In this document: positions 12,565 through 51,733 of the stretch, piece by piece
How the letters are laid out: the number at the start of each line of letters is the position of its first letter
How positions within the stretch are numbered: the first letter of the stretch is position 1
Origin: a virus
Direction: 5' to 3' (one strand)
DNA: 64,000 nt
IMG/VR virus record: IMGVR_UViG_3300042463_000877
Location: 24,403-88,402 of that record
Made by a program: the position numbers and the translations under genes
The notes under the pieces: generated by a model
The model's input: the letters and a program-made list of their open reading frames with translations, nothing else
Database searches by the model: none
What the model was told of the DNA's origin: nothing

Positions 12565-15500
12565 ATGGCTACTAATAGTAAAGTTTTTGTATCACCAGGA
12601 GTTTATACATCAGAAGTTGATTTGAGTTTTGTTGCTCAAAGCGTTGGTGTTACAACTCTAGGAATTGCCGGAGAAACAATTAAAGGTCCAGCATTTGAAC
12701 CTATCTTTGTTAGAAACTACGATGAATTCCAACAGTATTTTGGTGGGACATCACCAGAAAAATTTGTAAACACACAGATTCCTAAATATGAATCTGCTTA
12801 TATTGCTAAGGCATATTTACAACAATCAAATCAATTATTTGTCACCAGAATTTTAGGATTATCTGGTTATGATGCTGGACCTTCTTGGTCTATATTAACT
12901 AAAGCAAACTTAGACCCAAAAACTTTAGATTATTGGTGTTTAAGTGCTGGTACCGTTTTGTGTGAACCGGCTTGCGTTATTAAAAAAGAATTACCATTTA
13001 CAGTAAAATTTAGCGCTTGTACATTAAATACTGGTTTTGTTTCATACACAACAAGTTTTCCAAGCGACATTCAAAACATCTTAACTTCTTCTTATGAAGA
13101 ATTTGATGGAGATTTATCAACACTACAAACACAAATTAATGCTTTAATTTCTGATGTAATAAATAGTAGTAACCCAACTGCAGCACAGAATAATTTTATT
13201 AGATATTTTGGTTCTGTTCCACAAGCAGATTATAATAGTTTATTTGCTGGTGGTTACACAGCTGAAACAAACGTATTTGCGGTTGACAATTTACAGCAAA
13301 CAAATGTTTATACAAGTTTAAGTAACCCACTTAATAATCCTTTTTTATTAACAACAACTACAACAACTGGGAATTTTGGTCCTTATAATTTAGTTGTTAG
13401 TGTTGCACCAGGTTCAATTGTTGTACAGTTTTGTTTATCTTCAACATTACCAGTACCAAATGATGTAACATTATCCTTTGATGCAACAATAGATGTAACA
13501 AGTGGATTACCAATATTAATTAGTGATTCTGTAACAATCGAAGCTGGTGAAGTTAGTGGTTGTACTATTGTTAGTTTCCCTAATGATGATTATCAAAGAT
13601 TAGCTGGTACAGGGTCTTTAAGTAATTTAGTTTCGAGTGACCCTACTGAATTAGACCCTAATGACGTTACAATTACACTTCAGTTTGTTTGTGACCCAAT
13701 TTTACCAGTAACCACTACAACAACAGTACCACCAATACCAAATGTATGTTTTACAGGTTCTGTAGTTGGTATGATTTATTATTATACTGGTTCATCATTT
13801 ACTGAATACGATGATTTAGTTGTTACAACTTTACGCTCAAGAGGTATTTCACCATATTCTGACGGAACAAATCCAATTTATGAAGTTACTGGTGTAACTG
13901 ATGTAACAATTGATATGACTGGTCAATATAGTGGTGTTCTTAAAAATCCATTCTTACCATTTAGTGTTGGAGTCACTAACTATGATGGTAAAGAATTTGA
14001 TTTTGAAGTTTCACTATCGAATAGTGACGCTAAAAATATTAACAAAGTATTTGGTCGCGGTAATTTTGAAAAACCTAGAACTCAAGTTCCATTAATGGTT
14101 GAAGAATCATATTTAAATTTACTTAACTACGCTTGGAGTAAAGGATATATTAGAGGTTTAAATGCCGAACTAGTTGTTAGTGAAGGTGCTCAAAGTAATG
14201 ATTTAAACAGTATTGGATACTATTTAGAAAGATTCCAATCACCAAGTACACCTTGGGTTGTATCAGAATTAAGAGGTACAAAAGTTTATAACTTATTTAA
14301 ACTATATACAATTTCTGATGGTAATAGTGCTAACACAGAAGTTAAAATATCATTTACTGACTTATCATTTAATAACGAAACGTTTACTGTTTTAATTAGA
14401 GATTATTTTGATACGGATGCTAATCCAGTTGTGTTAGAAAAATTCACAAACTGTTCTATGAATCCACAAGAAAACAATTTTATTGCTAAAAAAATTGGTA
14501 CATTAGATGGTGAATATGAATTGAAATCTAGATACGTTCTTGTTGAGATTAACGAAGATGCTCCGATAGATGCAATTCCTTGTGGTTTTGAAGGTTATAC
14601 ATTTAGAGAGTATCCAGGCGGAAAATCACCATTCCCAGTTTATAAAACTAAATATTTCACACCAGGTGAATTAGTGTTTAACCCTCCTTTTGGTTTATCT
14701 AGTGGTGGTGACGATGCTTTCACAAGTCCTGGAGATAATGTTAGAAGAACATATTTAGGTTTAGGTTCTTACTGGGGTTATGATACTGACTTTTTCCAAT
14801 ATAAAGGAAAAAGAAAACCATTTAACTTATGTACTGGAGAACCATTTGATTGGGATTTCAAAACCAAAGGTTTCCATATGGACCAACTTGCTAGTGGAAT
14901 TACAATTTCAGGAGCATTTGCTTCAAGCGGTACTTCGGCTTTTGAAGTTGGTGATGCCACATTCTCTTCAGAACCTACAGACCCAACTGATCCTTACTAC
15001 AGATTAAACGCTAGAAAATTCACAGTCATGGTTTATGGTGGATTTGACGGTTGGGATATCTATAGAGAATACAGAACAAATGCCGATAAATATACTTTAG
15101 GTAGAGCAGGATTCTTAAATGGTGCTTGTTCATCTTTAAGATATCCAAAAGGTAAAGGAAATGGATTGTTTAAACAAATTGCAATCGGTGATGGAAGTGT
15201 TGAATATGGTAATACAGATTATTATGCTTACTTATTAGGTATTAGAACATTTGCCAACCCAGAAGCCGTAAATATCAATATATTAACAACACCAGGTATT
15301 GATTTGTATAATAATAATAATCTTGTTGAAGCAACAATTGATATGGTTGAAAATGAAAGAGCAGATTCACTTTATATTACAACAATGCCAGATTACCAAA
15401 TGTTTGTTGCAACAACAACTGAAGGTGATAACTTTATCTATCCACAAGAAGCTGTTGATTTGTTAGAAGAAACAGGAATTGATTCTAACTATACCGCAAC

Positions 15501-16104
15501 TTATTATCCTTGGGTATTAACAAGAGATAGTGTAAACAACACACAGATTTATATTCCAGCAACGGCTGAGGTTACAAGAAACTTGGCACTTACTGATAAT
15601 ATTGCATTCCCTTGGTTTGCGGCAGCAGGTTATACTCGTGGTATTGTAAACTCAATTAAAGCTCGTAAGAAGTTAACACAAGAAGACAGAGACGTTCTTT
15701 ATCTTGGAAGAATTAACCCAATTGCTACGTTTGCTGATGTAGGTACAGTAATCTGGGGTAACAAAACACTTCAAGTAAGAGAATCAGCACTTGATAGAAT
15801 CAACGTAAGAAGATTGTTGTTACAAGCGCGTAAGTTAATTTCTGCTGTGTCTGTAAGATTATTGTTTGATCAAAACGACCAACAAGTAAGACAAGACTTC
15901 TTAAATGCGGTTAACCCAATTTTAGATTCAATAAGAAGAGATAGAGGTTTATATGATTTCCGAGTAACAGTTTCTAACGACACTGAAGATTTGGATAAAA
16001 ATCAAATGGTAGGTAAAATCTACATTAAACCAACTAAGTCTTTAGAATTTATTGATATCACATTCTACATTACACCAACTGGTGCGTCGTTTGATGATGT
16101 ATAA
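12565..16104 (+). CDS. 18: Contractile tail sheath protein (T4 gp18-like, enlarged)
   Basis: The N-terminus (VSPGVYTSEVDLSFVAQSVG) and IKGPAFEPIFVRNYDEFQQYFG are the classic sheath opening. The C-terminus has GRINPIATFADVGTVIWGNKT, INVRRLLLQARKLISAVSVR and a final KSLEFIDITFYITPTG, the conserved core that polymerises around the tube. At 1179 residues it is far longer than T4 gp18 (659 aa). The extra length lies in central insertions, including a beta-sandwich-like stretch at about residues 257-390 bracketed by poly-Thr linkers (LLTTTTTTG and VTTTTTVPP). A hairpin terminator follows. The tube gene lies about 1.5 kb downstream, separated by two small cargo-like genes. Confidence 0.95.
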   Translation: MATNSKVFVSPGVYTSEVDLSFVAQSVGVTTLGIAGETIKGPAFEPIFVRNYDEFQQYFGGTSPEKFVNTQIPKYESAYIAKAYLQQSNQLFVTRILGLSGYDAGPSWSILTKANLDPKTLDYWCLSAGTVLCEPACVIKKELPFTVKFSACTLNTGFVSYTTSFPSDIQNILTSSYEEFDGDLSTLQTQINALISDVINSSNPTAAQNNFIRYFGSVPQADYNSLFAGGYTAETNVFAVDNLQQTNVYTSLSNPLNNPFLLTTTTTTGNFGPYNLVVSVAPGSIVVQFCLSSTLPVPNDVTLSFDATIDVTSGLPILISDSVTIEAGEVSGCTIVSFPNDDYQRLAGTGSLSNLVSSDPTELDPNDVTITLQFVCDPILPVTTTTTVPPIPNVCFTGSVVGMIYYYTGSSFTEYDDLVVTTLRSRGISPYSDGTNPIYEVTGVTDVTIDMTGQYSGVLKNPFLPFSVGVTNYDGKEFDFEVSLSNSDAKNINKVFGRGNFEKPRTQVPLMVEESYLNLLNYAWSKGYIRGLNAELVVSEGAQSNDLNSIGYYLERFQSPSTPWVVSELRGTKVYNLFKLYTISDGNSANTEVKISFTDLSFNNETFTVLIRDYFDTDANPVVLEKFTNCSMNPQENNFIAKKIGTLDGEYELKSRYVLVEINEDAPIDAIPCGFEGYTFREYPGGKSPFPVYKTKYFTPGELVFNPPFGLSSGGDDAFTSPGDNVRRTYLGLGSYWGYDTDFFQYKGKRKPFNLCTGEPFDWDFKTKGFHMDQLASGITISGAFASSGTSAFEVGDATFSSEPTDPTDPYYRLNARKFTVMVYGGFDGWDIYREYRTNADKYTLGRAGFLNGACSSLRYPKGKGNGLFKQIAIGDGSVEYGNTDYYAYLLGIRTFANPEAVNINILTTPGIDLYNNNNLVEATIDMVENERADSLYITTMPDYQMFVATTTEGDNFIYPQEAVDLLEETGIDSNYTATYYPWVLTRDSVNNTQIYIPATAEVTRNLALTDNIAFPWFAAAGYTRGIVNSIKARKKLTQEDRDVLYLGRINPIATFADVGTVIWGNKTLQVRESALDRINVRRLLLQARKLISAVSVRLLFDQNDQQVRQDFLNAVNPILDSIRRDRGLYDFRVTVSNDTEDLDKNQMVGKIYIKPTKSLEFIDITFYITPTGASFDDV

Positions 16105-17617: not shown

Positions 17618-18106
17618 ATGGCTGATTTATTAATGAAAATGCCAGTTCCGTACGAACCGAAAAGACAGAATAGGTTTATCGTTAGGTTTCCTTCAAGTTT
17701 GGGGATTAACGAATGGTTTGTTGAAAGTGCATCAAGACCGTCAATTAAAGTAGGTTCAACAGAAATCCAATTTCTAAACACTTCAACTTATGTTGCTGGT
17801 AGATTTAACTGGGACCCAATTACAGTTAAATTTAGAGATCCAATTGGACCTTCAGCATCACAAGCTCTAATGGAATGGATGCGTCTATGTGCTGAATCTG
17901 TTACTGGTCGTATGGGTTATGCCGCTGGTTACAAAAAGAATGTAGATTTGGAAATGTTAGATCCAACTGGAGTTGTTGTAGAAAAATGGATTTTAGAAGG
18001 TACATTTATGACAGATTTAAATTTTGGTTCTTTATCATATTCACAAGATGCAATAGCTGATATTTCAGCAACACTTCGTATGGACCGTTGTATACTCGTG
18101 TACTGA
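17618..18106 (+). CDS. 19: Tail tube protein (T4 gp19-like)
   Basis: 162 residues, the same size as T4 gp19 (163 aa). It forms the inner tube through which DNA passes. Features: PYEPKRQNRFIVRFPSSLGI at the N-terminus, FVESASRPSI, FNWDPITVKFRDPIGPSAS, and MLDPTGVVVEKWILEG in the C-terminal half, all typical of gp19-type tube subunits. It ends in beta strands (ADISATLRMDRCILVY). A strong terminator follows, so it can be expressed apart from the tape-measure unit, consistent with the high copy number of tubes. Confidence 0.93.
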   Translation: MADLLMKMPVPYEPKRQNRFIVRFPSSLGINEWFVESASRPSIKVGSTEIQFLNTSTYVAGRFNWDPITVKFRDPIGPSASQALMEWMRLCAESVTGRMGYAAGYKKNVDLEMLDPTGVVVEKWILEGTFMTDLNFGSLSYSQDAIADISATLRMDRCILVY

Positions 18107-18128: not shown

Positions 18129-18160
18129 ACCCACATAATTTTAGGTTATGTGGGTTTTTT
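18129..18160 (+). terminator. Terminator after tail tube gene
   Basis: ACCCACATAA (18129-18138) pairs perfectly with TTATGTGGGT (18146-18155), followed by T6. Confidence 0.9.
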
Positions 18161-18206: not shown

Positions 18207-18977
18207 ATGGAAACTAATGTTAATGATTACGGCCAAATGAATTTTAATTTACCACACGACGTGGTACCACTTCCATCTGGGGGGATTTTCTATCCAAATA
18301 AAAAGAAAAGTGTTAAGGTTGGTTATTTAACAGCGGCAGATGAAAACATATTAGTCAATATGGAAGGTAATAAATCAATTAAAGAAACATTGATATTACC
18401 TTTATTACGAAATAAATTATATGAACCAGATTTGAGACCAGAAGACTTATTAGATGGTGATTTGGAAGCAATTCTTTTATTTTTAAGAAATACATCTTTT
18501 GGACCAGAATACGTTGTTTCAGTTCCAGATCCACAATCAGGAAAATTATTTGATGCAACAATTGTTCTTGATGAATTAAACATTAAAAAAAATTCAGTAG
18601 AACCAGATAGTGACGGTACATTTACTGTTACATTACCTAGGAGTAAATCAACAGTTAAATTAAAACCCTTAACTATGAAGGACTACTTAGAAATGGAAAG
18701 AACCTTAGATTCATACCCACAAGGAAGAATCCAACCAACAGTTACTTTAAGACTTAACAAACTTATTATTGAATTGGATGGAAAGACAAACAAAGGTGAT
18801 ATTGCAAAATTTGTTGAATCAATGCCTATTTCTGATTCTAAGTATATTAGAAACTTTATGTTTGAAAACGAACCTAGACTTGATCTATCAAAAGAAGTTA
18901 TAGCCCCGTCTGGAGAAAGAGCAGTAGTATCTATTGCTTTTGGGGTGGAATTTTTTCGGCCTTTCTTCTCAATATAA
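18207..18977 (+). CDS. Tail assembly chaperone / T4 gp26-like protein, zero-frame product
   Basis: 256 residues. HDVVPLPSGGIFYPNKKK, then VGYLTAADENILVN, resembles the LPSKGLLYP...YMTAKEEDIL opening of T4-type gp26 proteins. It lies between tube and tape measure, the canonical place of tail assembly chaperones (lambda G/GT, P2 E/E'). The last six zero-frame codons after TTT-TTT (CGGCCTTTCTTCTCAATA) encode RPFFSI and then stop. Reading on in the +1 frame gives a conserved-looking 49-residue extension (see 18958-19107), for a fusion of about 299 residues. The fusion is predicted, not shown. If there is no frameshift in nature, a one-base assembly error in the T6 run would give the same picture. 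Confidence 0.82.
   Translation: METNVNDYGQMNFNLPHDVVPLPSGGIFYPNKKKSVKVGYLTAADENILVNMEGNKSIKETLILPLLRNKLYEPDLRPEDLLDGDLEAILLFLRNTSFGPEYVVSVPDPQSGKLFDATIVLDELNIKKNSVEPDSDGTFTVTLPRSKSTVKLKPLTMKDYLEMERTLDSYPQGRIQPTVTLRLNKLIIELDGKTNKGDIAKFVESMPISDSKYIRNFMFENEPRLDLSKEVIAPSGERAVVSIAFGVEFFRPFFSI
18951..18959 (+). promoter_or_regulatory. Candidate programmed +1 frameshift site TTT-TTT-CGG
   Basis: In the zero frame the ribosome reads TTT (18951-53), TTT (18954-56), CGG. Slipping +1 re-pairs Phe-tRNA from UUU to UUC, a better codon for its GAA anticodon, while the next codon CGG is rare in this AT-rich, AGA-using genome. The new frame then continues GGC CTT TCT. A -2 shift would reach the same frame. 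Confidence 0.55.
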
Positions 18978-19107
18978 GTTAAGACTTATTGACGAATATA
19001 TCTATTTAGCTAGAATGTTAAAACTTTCTTATAGTGATTATCTGATTATGCCAACATATTTCAGAAGATATGTTATTGATAAAATTTCAGAACAAAATCA
19101 ACAATAA
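18958..19107 (+). CDS. +1-frame extension of the chaperone (T4 gp51-like tail)
   Basis: Open in the +1 frame with no start codon near the join. It encodes 49 residues, beginning GLSSQYKLRLIDEYIYLARM and ending RRYVIDKISEQNQQ. The pattern of an aromatic N-terminal helix, LSYSDYLIMPTYFRRYVIDK and a Gln/Glu-rich end resembles T4-type gp51 (baseplate hub assembly catalyst; Pro-Ile-x-x-Arg-x-Trp/Tyr helix). It stops 26 nt before the tape measure ATG. It is probably made only as a fusion to the zero-frame protein. Confidence 0.6.
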   Translation, partial: GLSSQYKLRLIDEYIYLARMLKLSYSDYLIMPTYFRRYVIDKISEQNQQ

Positions 19108-19133: not shown

Positions 19134-21164
19134 ATGATGTTTGACGATAATAAAGCTAAAACAAGTGGTGCTGATTTAGAACAAGCAAATAAAGACTTGG
19201 AAACCGCATCAACACTACAAAATGCAACTAAATACTCAAACCTTTTAACTGAAGCAGCTAAAAATGGTGTTTTAGGTGTTGAAAAAACGGTAAAAACTGT
19301 AGTAGCTGACATAAAAGCAAGTGTTACTGATTTATTATCCTTAGAAGGTAATCTAAATAGATTAAAATTTTTAGATCAAGAAACTGCTAAAATTAATGAA
19401 GCTTTAGGAACTGGTACCAAAAAAGCCGATGAATTTAGAAAATTAATTGCTGACGGCGCCCCAAAATTTGCTGAACTTGGTTTATCAATTGGTGAAGTAC
19501 AAAAACAATACATCGATTTGTCTGCTGTTTTTGGGACAAACATATCAATTAGTGATGAACGTATGGCTGAACTAGCAGCAACAGCTAAAGTAACTGGTGT
19601 TAGTGCAAAAGATTTAGCATCATCATTTAGAGGTGTTGGTGTTAATTTAAGTGGTGTTGCAGATAAGATGATGGATGTTACAAAAGTAGCAAAAGAATCT
19701 GGAGCTATCGTAAGGGACGTTTCAGACAAAGTTGTTAAAAACATTGATAAATTAAATTTATATAATTTCCAAGGAGGAGTTACTGGTTTAGCTAAAATGT
19801 CCGCCCAGTCATCCAAACTTGGTATAGATATGGGTAAAATTTTTGAAATAACCGAAAAAGTTTTTAACCCAGAAAATGCAATAGAAATGGCAGCTGGTCT
19901 ACAAAGGTTAGGTGTTCAAACAAGTGCATTAACCGATCCACTAAAATTAATGGATTTATCAGCAAATGACCCGGCCGAATTACAAAACCAAATTGTAAAA
20001 ATGTCAAAAGATTTTGTTAGTTTTAATAAAAATTTAGGTGAGTTTCAAATTATGCCAGGCGAAAAAAGAAGATTAAGAGAGGTCGCTGAAGCTTTAGGTA
20101 TGACAAGTGGTGAATTAGCAAAAATGTCAATCAATGCGGCAAACTTAGATTATAAAATGAAACAAATCAAATTTTCACCTGGAACATCAAAAGAAGATAG
20201 GGAAATGATTGCAACTATGGCACAAATTAATAAACAAGGTGTTGCTGAAGTTAAGGTTAAACAATTTGTGGTAGACGAAAAAACTGGAAAAAAAGATAAA
20301 TGGACTGGTGAATATGTAATGAAAGAAGTTACAGATTTACAAGTTAACGAAATCCAATCTTTGAAAGAATCCCAAGAATTACAAGGGAAATCTATGGAAG
20401 AACTTGCAATTGACCAACTTTCTTCTTTACAAGCAATTGACGCAAAAATGTCGGCAACATTAACAGCTATGGGTTTTGGTGCCGCAACAACTTCACTAAT
20501 GCAAACTGGATATGAAGCAATAACAACTGGTGTTAGAAAAGCTGGTTTTGAAGCTCCAGAATCACCAGGAGGAGTTGTAAAAGATGAATTTAGAGAATCC
20601 GAAAATATAAGAGTTGGTTTAGGTGTGATAGGCGATAGAGTTGCTGGAGTAACAACTGAAGTTGAAAGTCTATATAACAAAATAAAAAGTGTAAAAAGTG
20701 TCCAAGACTTAAAAGATTTAACATCATCAACAATCGAAACATTAGCTAAGGCCTATAATACAATTACAAGTGATCAATTTTTTGAAGAAATGGGAAAGGA
20801 TTTTGAAACTAATTCACCAGAATTAGAAACGTTGTTCAGAAAAGAAAGTATAAAAGCAACAAGCGGTGTAAGTAACACAGCAATAAACACTTCTAATAAT
20901 GCAGTTAGTTCTAATAATGTTGTAAATAATAATATAGCAACACCATCAAACATTCAGAACAAACCATTAGAGTCTAAGATTGATTTAACAAATAAAGTTG
21001 ATGTTAATGTTACAATGGATCCTAACATAAGAAATCAAGCTTTAAGTACATTTTTAGCTGAGGAATTAAATAAGTATTACAGTGATAAAACCAATATGTC
21101 AACATTAATACAGAACATTACCAAATTTCAAAACGAAAACAATCTTATACCTGCGGGTAAATAA
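19134..21164 (+). CDS. Tape measure protein (gp29-like)
   Basis: 676 residues, mostly Ala/Lys/Glu/Leu-rich helices in coiled-coil-like stretches (DLEQANKDLETASTLQNATK; residues 1-130), with a C-terminal Asn-rich linker (NTAINTSNNAVSSNNVVNNN, near 580) and a small beta/helix end (VDVNVTMDPNIRNQALSTFL). Long helical composition and position right after the tube and the chaperone are the signature of tape measure proteins, which set tail length and occupy the tube lumen. No transmembrane or muralytic domain is obvious. ATGATG at 19134 gives two adjacent starts; the first is used here. Confidence 0.85.
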   Translation: MMFDDNKAKTSGADLEQANKDLETASTLQNATKYSNLLTEAAKNGVLGVEKTVKTVVADIKASVTDLLSLEGNLNRLKFLDQETAKINEALGTGTKKADEFRKLIADGAPKFAELGLSIGEVQKQYIDLSAVFGTNISISDERMAELAATAKVTGVSAKDLASSFRGVGVNLSGVADKMMDVTKVAKESGAIVRDVSDKVVKNIDKLNLYNFQGGVTGLAKMSAQSSKLGIDMGKIFEITEKVFNPENAIEMAAGLQRLGVQTSALTDPLKLMDLSANDPAELQNQIVKMSKDFVSFNKNLGEFQIMPGEKRRLREVAEALGMTSGELAKMSINAANLDYKMKQIKFSPGTSKEDREMIATMAQINKQGVAEVKVKQFVVDEKTGKKDKWTGEYVMKEVTDLQVNEIQSLKESQELQGKSMEELAIDQLSSLQAIDAKMSATLTAMGFGAATTSLMQTGYEAITTGVRKAGFEAPESPGGVVKDEFRESENIRVGLGVIGDRVAGVTTEVESLYNKIKSVKSVQDLKDLTSSTIETLAKAYNTITSDQFFEEMGKDFETNSPELETLFRKESIKATSGVSNTAINTSNNAVSSNNVVNNNIATPSNIQNKPLESKIDLTNKVDVNVTMDPNIRNQALSTFLAEELNKYYSDKTNMSTLIQNITKFQNENNLIPAGK

Positions 21165-46169: not shown

Positions 46170-46652
46170 ATGCCAAAATCATATAGAATAAGAACCCAGG
46201 TTGGGGTCGACAAATCAGTTAAAGTTAATCTGGACCAAGATTTTGACCAAATTAACATACTTTCTCTTAAAATATTACAGAGTGAGGTTTATAGTAGACA
46301 ATGTTCTGACTATGGTGTTATTGTTGGTCGTGTATTTGTTAATGGTGGTTTTGGATTACCAAATGCAAGGGTTTCTATTTTCATACCGCTACAACCAGAA
46401 GATGAAAATAACCCAGTAATAACTGAATTATACCCTTACCAAAGTTTATCTGATGTAAGTGACGACGGTTATAGATATAATTTATTACCTAAACTACCCT
46501 CGTATGAAGGTCACGCAGCAACTGGAACTTTTCCAACAAAAGAAGAAGTTTTATTAGACCAATCTTATATTGAGGTGTACGACAAATATTATAAGTTCAC
46601 AACTAAAACAAATGAAAGTGGTGATTATATGATATTGGTTGTTTTTCACTAA
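46170..46652 (+). CDS. Tail protein, N-terminal fragment of a broken gene
   Basis: 160 residues ending in YMILVVFH and a TAA. The N-terminus has SYRIRTQVGVDKSVKVNLDQ, then VIVGRVFVNGGFGLPNARVS, which looks like a carboxypeptidase-regulatory/Ig-type repeat domain common in phage tail proteins. The following frame (from 46625 to 51733) continues the same protein: related proteins run ESGDYM...GVP...DLSDIGCFSLTP, whereas here ESGDYMI is cut and frame 2 resumes at LYDIGCFSLTPQDL. About 15 residues seem missing and the frame is shifted. So 46170-51733 is best read as one gene of about 1,870 residues with a small deletion, or an assembly error. Confidence 0.75.
   Translation: MPKSYRIRTQVGVDKSVKVNLDQDFDQINILSLKILQSEVYSRQCSDYGVIVGRVFVNGGFGLPNARVSIFIPLQPEDENNPVITELYPYQSLSDVSDDGYRYNLLPKLPSYEGHAATGTFPTKEEVLLDQSYIEVYDKYYKFTTKTNESGDYMILVVFH
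46622..46652 (+). other. Frame-disrupting junction (probable short deletion)
   Basis: The text GGTGATTATATGATATTGGT carries both ends: zero frame ESGDYMI and frame 2 LYDIGC. ATGATA/TATGATATT could be microhomology at a deletion of non-multiple-of-three length. The upstream TGA in frame 2 is at 46622-46624. Confidence 0.55.
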
Positions 46653-47092
46653 CACCACAAGACTTAATCCAGAATGGAATTGCAACAGAAAATCAAGTTG
46701 ATGGAAATACATTTAAGTCTTCTACAAATTTAAATGAACTTCCACAGATAAAAACATTAAATAAAATTATTGATATTTCACCATTATGGGGTGATACAGA
46801 CGTTTGCCAATTAGGTATTACAAGAGTTGACTTTGATTTAAGTGAAGCAAATATAAGTATTGAACCAAAAGCAGTCTTTCTTGGTTCTATAATATCAACA
46901 ACTGATGACGATGCACTAAGAGTAAGTTGTAAACCAAAAAATAATACTGGAAATCTTTGTGAGTTAATCGCAGGTCCAGGACAAATATTATCAATAAGAC
47001 AAACAATAAATGTTGACCAGTTAGGACTCCCAATACTTGAAGAATTTAAATTACCAAACGATGGAAAAGTAATAGATGGTGATGGTTCGTAT

Positions 47093-50000
47093 TTGGTTAA
47101 TTTACCAATGAACTTAGATTATGTTTACACAAATGAATTTGGTGAACAAGCAATTTCAAATGACCCAAAATTAGGAATACCAACAAAAGCAAGGTATAGG
47201 TTTAAATTTAAGTGGGAAAACGAAGGTGGTTTACAAAATGAGTTCCAAAGAGCAAATTATTTTGTACCAAATATTAAAGAACATGGGTGGACAGTATCCA
47301 CTTATAATAGTGACCCTTTAAAAACTGGACAAGTACAATTACTTACCGGAACAATACAACCCGGACAAGGTACAAGTGTTATATTTGGTCCACTTGGAAA
47401 TAGTGGTTTAGTTTTTAAAGAAGTTGTAAATGTATCAAGTTATTCTGTTGAAGTAGGACCAAGTATTGGTGGACCTTGGACACCATATTATGGTGACACC
47501 CAAGTGATATCAACACAAACACCAAATGATTTTATAAATGTAACTTTGGTTCCAGAGGACCCAAATCAACCATCAGACATTGTTTATAAGTTTTTTAATC
47601 AAGAATATTTTGATTTATTAAAATCATATTCATTTAGTTTAGATTGGGACGACTACGCAGATTCACAAGCGGCAATAAATTGTGAAGATACTTTTTATGA
47701 ATTTCACTATAATAAAGTATATACAACAGCAATGTTTCTTGATCGTTATAAAAGAGGTCTTGGAAGAGCAAAACATTTAGGGATAAAAGAAATTGATAAT
47801 AGAACTTGTAAGTCTGAAACAAACACATTTCCAGTAAATGACGTTGTAAGAAATTTTGATTTTTTATTTTTTATTTTTAATTTGTTTATTTCAATATTAA
47901 CACCACTTGTTTTTGTTCCTTTATTGTTTATAGCACATTTAATTTCATTTATTTGGCCAGTACTTAAATACTTGTTAGTATTTTTGGGTGTATACATATC
48001 ATACCTTGGTGTTGATTCGGGAATTGATTTATATTACTATATCACTTCAATAGGTGATGCAAACGCAGGTGGTCCAGTAATTTCTCTTGCAACAATTTTA
48101 CAAATTATAAAACAAGGTGTGAAAGTGTTATTTATGGTTGCCGCAGGTATTGCTTTAAGTGCTTTTACACTAAAATATTTAATAAATATTGATAACTTCC
48201 CAAGACTTGGATTACCAATGTTATCATATCCCGATTGTACAGCATGTGATTGTGAATGTGGAAACGCAGACTTTTCTGAGGCAAATAACATAAATGAGTC
48301 TAGTGTTAATCAAGGAATATCTGATGCTCAATCACAAGTTGACGGTTCAGATTTACCAGAAGGAATACCAACAACAGCAATTACTGATAATTCTTTTATT
48401 GCACCAATTAATCTACCTTCTTCTTACCCAACATTATCACATCCAAATGTGTCTCAACCAGAACCACAAAATCAACCAATTACAGGACCCTATTATTTTA
48501 ATGGGTTTAGCTGTAATCCAACATTCAATTGTAATTCACCATTATTTTGGAACGTACCTTGGTGTGGGCATAAATCATTAAGTTACTCAATCGGAGAACA
48601 ATGGATAGACACAAATGTTATTATTGCCGCAACTCTTGGATATCAAAGATTATTAAGCGGTAGTGAATCATTAGATATTGGAAATGATTATTATGGTGTT
48701 CCAGATAAAACATATTTACACGCACCAAATCATTTTTTACTTTCAGCTCAAAAATATTTAGGTAGTGATTGGAGATTTTTTGCAAAACCATATACTGAAA
48801 CATATTCACAAAAATTAAATGAATTTAATTTGAGACAAAAATATTTTGATAATGTAAATCAAATTGAAGTAACATTTAACACAACAAGTACTAATAATCA
48901 AAATACAAAACATAAAGACCAAGTATTGGTAATATTAGCAAAAGCCGGAACCGCAAGTCAAATCGGTGTTGGTAGTTTATTTACATTCCAAGATGGTGTG
49001 ATTTCTTTGTGTAACCCAAATTTGACAGGTGTTACGTTTCACGATGGTAATAATTTTGGTGAAAATCAATTTGGAAATAATGCCGTTACTGGTTTCACAA
49101 CAACTGGTATTAGTATTACAAATTTAAGTTATGCAAACCCAACAACACCAACCAACTCCCAATCAGTACAATATGAACTATTCTATTCTGGTGAAAGTGA
49201 AAATTATTTACAGTACAATATAGATTTAGAATACTTCCAATTAATTTCCGGATATACATACAACCAATTTAATTCACTTGCAAGTTTCACAAATGCAAAT
49301 TACTTCCCAAGTAAATATCTAAAACACGATGCTGTTTTTGTTTATCAAGATGGTGATTGTAATTTAACACAAGCACCACCACCGGCAAGTAATTATCAGT
49401 ATTCATATTTTAACAATATTGTTGAAAATATTCCACAATTTGGTAATTTAGAAGTTTTAATTATTACTAGAGGTGTTGACCCACATTCACCTAAACAAAA
49501 AAATAAATACGATTTATCTAGAATTTTTGGTAAATCATTTGGACAAGGACCAATTGTTGAGGGTGAATATTATTTGAATATACCAATACAAGCAACAGGA
49601 ATAAAACCAACAACACATATCATAACACAAAATGATTCAGCGCCAGATTTATTTTTTGAACCATATAATTTTAGAATTGGAGAAACATATATAGTAAGTG
49701 GTGTAACTTGTAATGAATTTACTGGGTTTACGTCAACATTACCTTTTTATTATTTATGTCCAGATGAATTTATTGCTAATAGTTATAAACCATCACCATT
49801 ATTAAATTTCCAAACAATATCATCAATTGCACCAAATCAACACACTATTTTAAGTAATTCAAACGGAAGATCATCTGTTTTACCAACAATTTATGATGTT
49901 TCAAACACACCTTTTCATCAAACTTTACCACAATCTACTTTAAATTATTATTTTGCTGGTGGTTCATTTACAGCATCTAATTCATTTGCTGGTCAGATTT

Positions 50001-51733
50001 ATCAAGGTATGACCCAAAATTTTAATGGAAATAACGACCAATATTCTGTAGGACTTACTAAATATGCTGTATATTCACCTGCTTACTATAAGTACAATCC
50101 GGCACCAATATTCTTTACAGTTGACCAAACACCTGGACAACCACAATACCTTGTTATGAGAAGTGACAGATTACCAACCTCAACAAGAACCCAAGAAAAT
50201 TACGCTGAAACAAGTTATGCACTACATCAAAATACTAATTTCCAATATTTTAGTGCACAAGGTCAATCATCGCCAACAATAGCTTTAGCACCAGACCCAT
50301 CTGCTGGTCAAGCCGTTTATGATGAGTCAGAATTTGTACAAGGTTTAACATCAACATTAAGTTGTGAAAATATGAAACCTTTAGAATGTTACCAAGGTAG
50401 CGGGACCAATGTAAGTATTAATCCAAACTGCGATATACCAGAAAATAGAATGGTTAGAGGTTGTTATTGTTTATTAAATAAAGATTTTTTATTTGAATTT
50501 CCAGAAGACGCTAGATTGTTACTTGAATGGAAAACAAGATTTACACTAACATTTGCGGCATGTAGAGGAGTATTTTCTCAAACATTCCAAAACAACTGGA
50601 TTAATGGTGTTTTATATATGTTTACATTTAATAAAGTAAGTAAATTTAATTTAGCACAACCAGATGAACCACAATATAAGTACTGTCAAGATACTATTGT
50701 TTATAATGAATTAACTAATGGTTTTTATTACAGGTCTTCACCTTGGAATGGTAATAATTTTATTGGTGTTGAATCACCGCCAGCAAGTCAGTTTTGGCCA
50801 ACAGAATTAATAAATGATTTCCCAGGGTTAGGGTATAACACAAAAAGAATACAATTTCCAACAACAGTAATGGATATGGGACCTAGAGATAAGTTTATTA
50901 GTCAAATATGTAATGATTCGGATTTTAACGGATATCTTGTTGACCAAGTAAAATCAACGTCTTACCAAGATAATTCTGATTTGCTACAAATGAGTTTTAT
51001 TTCAAGACTACTTAATGCTTCAGTTTGGGACCAAATAATACCAATTGGTAACCCAAGTGGTGGATCATCAGAAGGTAAAGGTATTGTTCAGTTTTTTAAT
51101 AGCTCAAGACAAGCGGAAAGAATTGATGGTGATATCGCACAAGCATTATCAATAAATTCTGAGTGGAGAGTAAGTCCATACATTGAAGAAAATTACCCAA
51201 ATAATTTCTTATATATTGGTTCAGATGCAACACCAGACGCAAAGCCTGTATTTGGTATTTTCTTTTCATCATCTACCGAAGATTATAGTTATAGAAGAAA
51301 ATTATCACCTGGTATTGAAGCTTTAAGTTACAAGTGTGGTGGTGTATTTAATTATTATGGTTATCCTCACGACCAAAATGTACCACATTATTTATGGAGG
51401 ATAACAGGACCAACAAATAGTATTTTTGGAACAGAAGATAATAATTGGAATACGCAGGTTTTATCAAATGGTGGATTCTTTAGTAAGACTTATCAAGATT
51501 TAGATTTTAATACAGACCCATATTTTAGGAAATCAAATAACCTTGAAAATTTTGGATTTATAACAAACTTTGATTCTAATGATAATCCAGAAATTTTACC
51601 AAACGGTGTTGTAAATGGATTACCAAATCAAAGTGTTATTGTTGGAGCACCATATCATTTTTATTTTGGACTTTCAAACGGAAATACAGCAATTGATAAA
51701 TTCATAAAAGTTTACATCAACACCGAAGGATAA
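47093..51733 (+). CDS. Tail protein with membrane segments, C-terminal part of broken gene
   Basis: The first ATG is 47093 (1546 residues), but this frame is open from 46625 without a start, so the real protein begins upstream. Residues about 253-300 contain long hydrophobic stretches (FDFLFFIFNLFISILTPLVF, LLVFLGVYISYLGVD), and about 320-360 another (VKVLFMVAAGIALSAFTLKY), unusual for a tail protein. A Cys cluster (YPDCTACDCECGN) follows near 382. The rest is beta-rich fibre-like sequence with many Gln/Asn/Thr. A role in contact with or insertion into the host envelope is inferred from the membrane segments. The stop overlaps the next start (TAATG). Confidence 0.75.
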   Translation: MVNLPMNLDYVYTNEFGEQAISNDPKLGIPTKARYRFKFKWENEGGLQNEFQRANYFVPNIKEHGWTVSTYNSDPLKTGQVQLLTGTIQPGQGTSVIFGPLGNSGLVFKEVVNVSSYSVEVGPSIGGPWTPYYGDTQVISTQTPNDFINVTLVPEDPNQPSDIVYKFFNQEYFDLLKSYSFSLDWDDYADSQAAINCEDTFYEFHYNKVYTTAMFLDRYKRGLGRAKHLGIKEIDNRTCKSETNTFPVNDVVRNFDFLFFIFNLFISILTPLVFVPLLFIAHLISFIWPVLKYLLVFLGVYISYLGVDSGIDLYYYITSIGDANAGGPVISLATILQIIKQGVKVLFMVAAGIALSAFTLKYLINIDNFPRLGLPMLSYPDCTACDCECGNADFSEANNINESSVNQGISDAQSQVDGSDLPEGIPTTAITDNSFIAPINLPSSYPTLSHPNVSQPEPQNQPITGPYYFNGFSCNPTFNCNSPLFWNVPWCGHKSLSYSIGEQWIDTNVIIAATLGYQRLLSGSESLDIGNDYYGVPDKTYLHAPNHFLLSAQKYLGSDWRFFAKPYTETYSQKLNEFNLRQKYFDNVNQIEVTFNTTSTNNQNTKHKDQVLVILAKAGTASQIGVGSLFTFQDGVISLCNPNLTGVTFHDGNNFGENQFGNNAVTGFTTTGISITNLSYANPTTPTNSQSVQYELFYSGESENYLQYNIDLEYFQLISGYTYNQFNSLASFTNANYFPSKYLKHDAVFVYQDGDCNLTQAPPPASNYQYSYFNNIVENIPQFGNLEVLIITRGVDPHSPKQKNKYDLSRIFGKSFGQGPIVEGEYYLNIPIQATGIKPTTHIITQNDSAPDLFFEPYNFRIGETYIVSGVTCNEFTGFTSTLPFYYLCPDEFIANSYKPSPLLNFQTISSIAPNQHTILSNSNGRSSVLPTIYDVSNTPFHQTLPQSTLNYYFAGGSFTASNSFAGQIYQGMTQNFNGNNDQYSVGLTKYAVYSPAYYKYNPAPIFFTVDQTPGQPQYLVMRSDRLPTSTRTQENYAETSYALHQNTNFQYFSAQGQSSPTIALAPDPSAGQAVYDESEFVQGLTSTLSCENMKPLECYQGSGTNVSINPNCDIPENRMVRGCYCLLNKDFLFEFPEDARLLLEWKTRFTLTFAACRGVFSQTFQNNWINGVLYMFTFNKVSKFNLAQPDEPQYKYCQDTIVYNELTNGFYYRSSPWNGNNFIGVESPPASQFWPTELINDFPGLGYNTKRIQFPTTVMDMGPRDKFISQICNDSDFNGYLVDQVKSTSYQDNSDLLQMSFISRLLNASVWDQIIPIGNPSGGSSEGKGIVQFFNSSRQAERIDGDIAQALSINSEWRVSPYIEENYPNNFLYIGSDATPDAKPVFGIFFSSSTEDYSYRRKLSPGIEALSYKCGGVFNYYGYPHDQNVPHYLWRITGPTNSIFGTEDNNWNTQVLSNGGFFSKTYQDLDFNTDPYFRKSNNLENFGFITNFDSNDNPEILPNGVVNGLPNQSVIVGAPYHFYFGLSNGNTAIDKFIKVYINTEG

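Follow-up and report, generated by a model that had tools for sequence, protein, structure and literature searches.

A putative programmed +1 frameshift with a conserved upstream hairpin in a T4-type tail assembly chaperone gene of aquatic phages

Introduction

The gene studied here, in the window (the whole 64,000-nucleotide stretch analysed, taken from IMG/VR virus record IMGVR_UViG_3300042463_000877), ends in the codons GTG GAA TTT TTT CGG CCT TTC TTC TCA ATA TAA, while the +1 frame (TTC GGC CTT TCT TCT CAA ...) runs on past this end for 49 residues after EFF. Is the gene broken, is the tail a protein of its own, or are two proteins made from one gene, and by which step? A first-pass annotation had proposed a programmed +1 frameshift at TTT TTT CGG that makes a fused tail assembly chaperone. 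We found that the best explanation of the comparative evidence is very probably of this kind: one gene would give two forms of a T4-type tail assembly chaperone through a +1 shift at the rare CGG codon, probably stimulated by a hairpin just upstream.

Results

The gene, its neighbours and the shift site

The features of the locus are collected in Table 1. The family matched by the short ORF carries the label 'baseplate hub' in phrog_150 and T4_baseplate in Pfam (PF12322). The CGG is the sixth codon ahead of the zero-frame stop and the extension has 49 residues, as the first-pass annotation had described; the +1 frame is already open upstream of the T6 run. CGG was correctly called rare, since it accounts for 4 of the 19,321 codons in the window and is one of its two rarest sense codons. 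As a +1 motif, UUU_CGN is familiar from influenza PA-X and amalgaviruses (PMC5052127). TTT followed by CGN occurs once in the ORFs of the window, and that occurrence is the shift site, where the in-frame UUU CGN is accompanied by an open and conserved +1 frame. The 88,402-base IMG/VR record contained no tRNA genes, and a phage-encoded tRNA decoding CGG was therefore rejected.

Table 1. Positions in the window of the chaperone gene, its parts and its neighbours.
Feature	Positions	Strand	Details
Tail tube protein (gp19-like), upstream gene	17618-18106	+	phrog_4542 'tail tube protein', E 9e-29
Short-form ORF (TAC-N)	18207-18977	+	256 aa, T4 gp26 family; PF12322 E 1.6e-11, phrog_150 E 8.5e-14
Upstream hairpin	18903-18946	+	pairing, covariation, folding energy, covariance model
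Hairpin outer stem	18903-18908/18941-18946		
Hairpin 5' bulge	18909-18917		UCNGGAGAA
Hairpin inner stem	18918-18926/18932-18940		
Hairpin loop	18927-18931		
Spacer between hairpin and T6	18947-18950	+	GGAA, 4 nt; from sequence
Shift site TTT TTT CGG	18951-18959	+	from sequence; invariant in 41/41 non-redundant relatives
T6 run	18951-18956		begins with the E-site TTT
P-site TTT	18954-18956		would re-pair as TTC, 18955-18957
A-site CGG	18957-18959		
Zero-frame stop	18975-18977		
+1-frame tail, C-terminal domain of the putative long form (TAC-NC, 299 aa)	18958-19107	+	49 aa + stop; open to 19104, stop 19105-19107
Candidate tape measure protein, downstream gene	19134-21164	+	676 aa; position only

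The first-pass annotation had also placed the gene between those of the tail tube and the tape measure. The tube gene was identified by its profile, whereas the downstream gene is a candidate tape measure gene by its position: the same slot is annotated as tape measure in Flavobacterium phage immuto and Listeria phage LIS04, and its product had no family match in the profile searches that identified the chaperone and the tube. Between the tube and chaperone genes lies a strong terminator-like hairpin with a T run (18129-18155, + strand). The tail sheath gene (12565-16104, + strand) encodes 1,179 aa with sheath domains only near the C-terminus, and its product is far longer than T4 gp18, which we take to be about 660 aa.

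The split is kept in related phages

Scans of IMG/VR returned at least 80 close relatives and, when widened, more than 250 others, and many further ones exist. Among the matches listed, 158 informative loci belonged to the clade of the window (clade A) and 171 to a related +1 group (sister clade), 329 altogether. The group of aquatic T4-like phages carrying this gene appears to be very widespread; relatives were not found in bacterial genomes.

In 157 of the 158 clade-A loci the +1 tail was open over 40 codons or more, compared with 2/158 for the -1 control frame, and the sole exception (L038) has a disrupted tail. The sister clade kept the +1 tail in 170 of 171 loci, with the -1 frame open in 10/171. 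The conservation of site and tail that the first-pass annotation had called for was thus observed. A -1 reading of the site, which at an X XXY YYZ heptamer of -1 chaperone genes would go with an open -1 frame, was rejected on the same counts for clade A. The motif TTT GGG GTK GAR TTT TTT CGG CCT was present in essentially all clade-A loci. L286 is the only one of them with CGA for CGG, and its +1 product reads FFD, not FFG.

These comparisons bear directly on the possibility that a sequencing or assembly indel has split one continuous gene. The record is metagenomic, and another of its genes does look broken: in the region 46170-51733 (+ strand) an ORF at 46170-46652 is followed by one at 47108-51733 in another frame, which is open from 46625 but has no ATG, GTG or TTG until 47093. 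Because the frame runs through this region unbroken in 80 of 80 relatives, we ascribe the break to a lesion in, or faulty assembly of, a large gene adjoining the baseplate wedge genes of this record. The chaperone gene behaves in the opposite way, so that the comparison separates lesions from programmed splits. Homologues with one continuous frame, which the first-pass annotation had named as the sign of an indel, numbered 0 among the 329 informative loci; since all of these carry the split, the indel reading is refuted and hardly conceivable.

Both the tail and the codons at the junction are constrained. Among 41 non-redundant clade-A sequences, the pooled pN of the tail was 0.30 and the pS 0.65, and differences at the three +1-frame codon positions were 0.34/0.24/0.50, indicating at the sequence level that the tail is under purifying selection. 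Only 4 of the 96 columns for Gly, Ala, Pro, Thr, Val, Arg, Leu and Ser were codon-invariant in the 41 non-redundant sequences. The four codons are GCC, GGA and GGG, which lie in the hairpin, and the A-site CGG, and all fall within the last 19 codons before or at the site. Dual coding (Arg in the zero frame, Phe-Gly in the +1 frame) accounts in part for the invariant CGG.

We also considered whether the tail could be a small protein translated independently from a start of its own, like the 'gp51' annotated in cyanophages such as S-PM2. Separate ORFs are annotated in S-PM2, S-ShM2 and HTVC008M, and the +1 frame has a TTG shortly before the site. However, the head of the tail has no conserved ATG or GTG (GTG in none of the 158 loci, ATG in 14), the junction itself is constrained, and T4 gp51 has its tail fused to a gp26-like domain. 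We regard a separate protein as very improbable.

A conserved hairpin precedes the site in clade A

The most distinctive part of the locus had been missed by the first-pass annotation: a hairpin immediately upstream of the site, at a distance that is fixed across 159 loci. The outer stem (GCCCC with GGGGU) was paired in 159 of 159 loci, and its end pairs vary only between G-U and A-U. In the inner stem 89.7% of cells were paired, against 41-61% in slid controls, and cells with a double change numbered 34 against 16.1 in shuffles, the observed value being reached in 0 of 500 shuffles. In eight sequences a register shifted by one gives better pairing, the gain being slight in three. When the 51 bases before the site were compared with synonymous-codon randomisations, the minimum free energy had a mean z of -2.7, with 95% of values below -1.5; this signal was absent in three segments further upstream under codon randomisation. 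A covariance model matched the window only once, at 18894-18971 (E 3.6e-25). The alignment of 41 non-redundant relatives indicates that the hairpin is subject to compensatory changes and strong synonymous constraint. A stable, covarying stem immediately upstream of a shift site is the arrangement of an upstream stimulator, and we propose this as its putative role.

RNAalifold, run on 78 columns, preferred a different fold that includes the shift site, in which GGAGAA is predicted to pair with UUCUUC; none of the pairs of this fold shows a double change. The bulge is nearly invariant and its GGA codon fully so, and it could pair with the UUCUUC just past the shift site or bind something. No consensus RNA structure was found downstream of the site. 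An intrinsic terminator (GC stem with a T run within 2 nt) was rejected, the terminator scan reporting none at the site. An internal Shine-Dalgarno sequence of the prfB type, for which the rule is a position 3 nt before the shift codon (PMC5009743), was rejected as well: the GGGG here ends 8 nt before the P-site codon, and the A site holds CGG, not a stop.

By sequence comparison the hairpin is largely specific to clade A. For an equivalent in the sister clade the covariance model gave weak matches only (best E 0.0002, L240), and the folding signal there was weak (mean z -1.06), with single folds that were not uniform. Among the sister-clade loci L182-L261, some have short, non-uniform hairpins directly before the site.

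It is possible, though unlikely, that the shift is real and that the hairpin is not its stimulator but has a role in mRNA stability, in attenuating transcription or in binding a protein, for instance by way of the bulge. Such a role would suit a sister clade that shifts without an equivalent hairpin, and it would leave room for the otherwise unexplained bulge and the predicted GGAGAA-UUCUUC pairing. The fixed distance to the site, on the other hand, is that of known upstream stimulators, and the terminator scan does not report the hairpin.

The tail is also kept behind other sites

The sister clade keeps the tail behind UUU_UGG, prfB-like CUU_UGG or UUU_CUA sites. The 107 non-redundant sites read TTT TTT TGG CCT in 71 cases and TTT CTT TGG CCT in 23, the others being variants, and 104/107 have TGG in the A site. 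In 27 of the 107 the site is TTTCTTTGG, TTTCTATGG or TTTCTTTAC, with no T run longer than three, and the tail is nevertheless kept.

These sites are relevant to the main rival of ribosomal frameshifting, stem-loop transcriptional slippage, in which the polymerase, nudged by the nascent hairpin, would drop one U from T6. Losing one U before ordinary translation gives the identical EFFGL fusion, and a hairpin just 5' of a T run resembles the case of a Roseiflexus IS (T5C5; PMC5009743). However, about nine T or A are normally needed and the Roseiflexus hairpin directly adjoins its run (PMC5009743), whereas only T6 is present here and the GGAA spacer intervenes. Slippage would also have no need for the NGG codon that is kept in the A site. 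With the spacer, so short a run and sister-clade sites that lack a T run all speaking against slippage, we consider it improbable.

Cultured phages on the sister-clade side include Flavobacterium phage immuto and Microcystis phage Mel-JY01, and a +1 read-on was also found in Bacillus phage SP-15, Listeria phage LIS04, Streptococcus phage GXN1 (TTC TTT CGT) and Streptomyces phage BRock (TTT CGC). A -1 tail at T TTT TTC or T TTT TTT was found in cyanophages, Pelagibacter phage HTVC008M, KVP40, Aeromonas phage 65, Milchi and Marzo. The -1 tail is conserved after the gp26 genes of loci L093, L094, L095, L096, L097, L098, L100 and L101, and several records list it as a gene in its own right ('gp51', 'baseplate hub assembly catalyst' or hypothetical).

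In a protein tree one branch (support 99/97) divided the +1 from the -1 group, and T4 gp26 and gp51 fell on the -1 side. Single placements are unsure because several branches are long. Xanthomonas phage XacN1 (L091), which has a gp26-like gene with a -1 tail, was weakly placed among the +1 group, and a switch of shift direction is possible there. That the direction changed between the +1 and -1 lineages of the family, with a homologous tail throughout, forms one reading with a natural hairpin-driven +1 shift, and we regard this reading as evenly poised.

Relation to T4 gp26 and gp51

The first-pass annotation had described the product as a fusion of gp26 and gp51. T4 gp26 and gp51 both match PF12322 (E 9e-64 and 4e-52) and phrog_150, and in profile positions gp26 stops at 235 and gp51 reaches 280. 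Because gp26 is the shorter and gp51 the extended protein on the same profile, gp26 corresponds to the short form and gp51 to the long form, made from separate genes. Their sequences indicate that they are paralogues and that gp51 is a gp26-like domain plus a tail, so that T4 uses two genes where the phage of the window would use one gene and a shift. The proposed gp51-like tail on a gp26-family protein was upheld by these profiles; the picture of two fused halves was not, both T4 proteins being full PF12322 proteins.

Since the clade-A tail gave no significant match to a cyanophage tail or a single gp51 tail directly, its homology to the gp51 C-terminus was traced by steps. Profile comparisons scored 97% between clade A and the sister clade, 95% between the sister clade and the cyanophage -1 tails, and 91% between those and the gp51 C-terminus, against less than 0.4% in reversed controls. 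In the AlphaFold model the N-terminal domain has good confidence, residues 246-260 form a flexible joint, and the tail has two longer helices (254-270 and 283-297) of lower confidence. Foldseek identified the gp26-family fold, with 56 viral matches at E<=0.001 that include the SP-15 hub and gp26 of Aeromonas phage 25; neither sequence nor fold search found a solved structure for the chaperone.

Discussion

From the conserved features we infer a shift of low frequency, in which most ribosomes would stop at 18977 and release the gp26-like short form. Once the second UUU, read by tRNA-Phe, has reached the P site and the rare CGG the A site, the ribosome would pause, and the tRNA (anticodon GAA) could move one base from UUU to UUC, its best codon. 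This slip is the one put forward in the first-pass annotation, and the comparative evidence supports it. The hairpin just melted would re-form at the mRNA exit, 4 bases behind T6, where it may favour forward and hinder backward movement. When an upstream hairpin folds back after the ribosome has passed, +1 shifting rises and -1 shifting falls, on 70S ribosomes also with a hungry or starved sense codon in the A site (PMC6321510) and likewise in yeast, where CUU_CGG_C was the site (PMC3639245), and the 5' stem-loop of T4 gene 60 is thought to pull the mRNA (PMC5009743). By analogy, the order of stem, 4 nt and UUU UUU CGG fits a +1 shift stimulated by an upstream hairpin. The 4-nt spacing itself would count against stimulation, given that a change of spacer from 2 to 5 nt cost engineered hairpins about half of their -1 attenuation (PMC3639245). 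If the lambda gpG/gpGT analogy holds, coating of the tape measure would fall to the short form, and tube subunits would be brought in by the tail of the long form.

The abstract of Vladimirov, Gautam and Davidson (2022, Virology 566:9-15) reportedly deals with genes 26 and 51 and states that frameshifting is kept in several T4-like groups. Papers that cite this work attribute to it some T4-like phages with one short and one long fused gene (PMC10885494) and poly-T -1 signals in the TAC-N genes of T4-like phages (PMC12846349). Atkins et al. (2016) still treat T4 as the exception and regard a +1 shift in HSTV-2 as very likely (PMC5009743). Going by these citing papers, the short/long chaperone scheme, including frameshifting in T4-like phages outside T4's group, is already published with -1 shifts (2022), and the novelty that the first-pass annotation saw in the strategy narrows to its direction. 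A +1 shift with a conserved upstream hairpin looks new, as we found none published, Vladimirov 2022 being represented here by the papers that cite it.

A natural, deeply conserved +1 shift on bacterial ribosomes, stimulated by a hairpin re-forming behind the ribosome and by a hungry CGG, with a direction that changed between lineages, is a reading that may equally well be right or wrong. If true, it would place at a natural +1 site an effect that has so far been seen in engineered constructs and, where bypassing is concerned, in T4 gene 60, and the site would offer a ready natural test of upstream hairpins that drive forward shifts on 70S ribosomes. One chaperone family would then have three solutions to making a short and a long form, namely a +1 shift, a -1 shift and, in T4, two genes. 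In hundreds of genomes from aquatic phages the annotated chaperone is then likely to be truncated, with the small ORF either absent or spurious.

Comparison with known systems

The nearest relatives are the TAC-N and TAC-NC proteins of T4-like phages (gp26/gp51), with which the product shares PF12322, the slot before the tape measure, short and long forms and a gp51-like tail; the frameshift stands where T4 has two genes. The T4-like sites read in this analysis, like those that a citing paper describes, shift by -1 and use T runs (T TTT TTC in cyanophages, KVP40 and Aeromonas phage 65), whereas the window has a putative +1 site, UUU_CGG, preceded by a hairpin. Lambda gpG/gpGT and other -1 chaperones have in common with it a low-level shift near the gene end, before the tape measure, that yields a C-terminally extended chaperone (PMC5009743), but lambda differs in protein family and shift direction. 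The archaeal myovirus HSTV-2 is a precedent for a very likely +1 shift in the same slot (PMC5009743). Influenza A PA-X and the plant amalgaviruses use the same P-site UUU, A-site CGN and slip from UUU to UUC (PMC5052127); they are, however, eukaryotic RNA viruses, and PA-X has no evident stimulator (PMC5009743). The prfB site, CUU_UGA with an internal Shine-Dalgarno sequence, is likewise a +1 site with a slow A site, and the sister clade has CUU_UGG; the site of the window differs in having no Shine-Dalgarno sequence at 3 nt and a sense codon in the A site. Engineered refolding hairpins (PMC3639245, PMC6321510) and the T4 gene 60 stem-loop (PMC5009743) share with the present hairpin the principle that a hairpin behind the ribosome favours forward movement. 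The former are designed constructs and gene 60 is a 50-nt bypass, whereas the hairpin described here would act at a natural, conserved +1 site.
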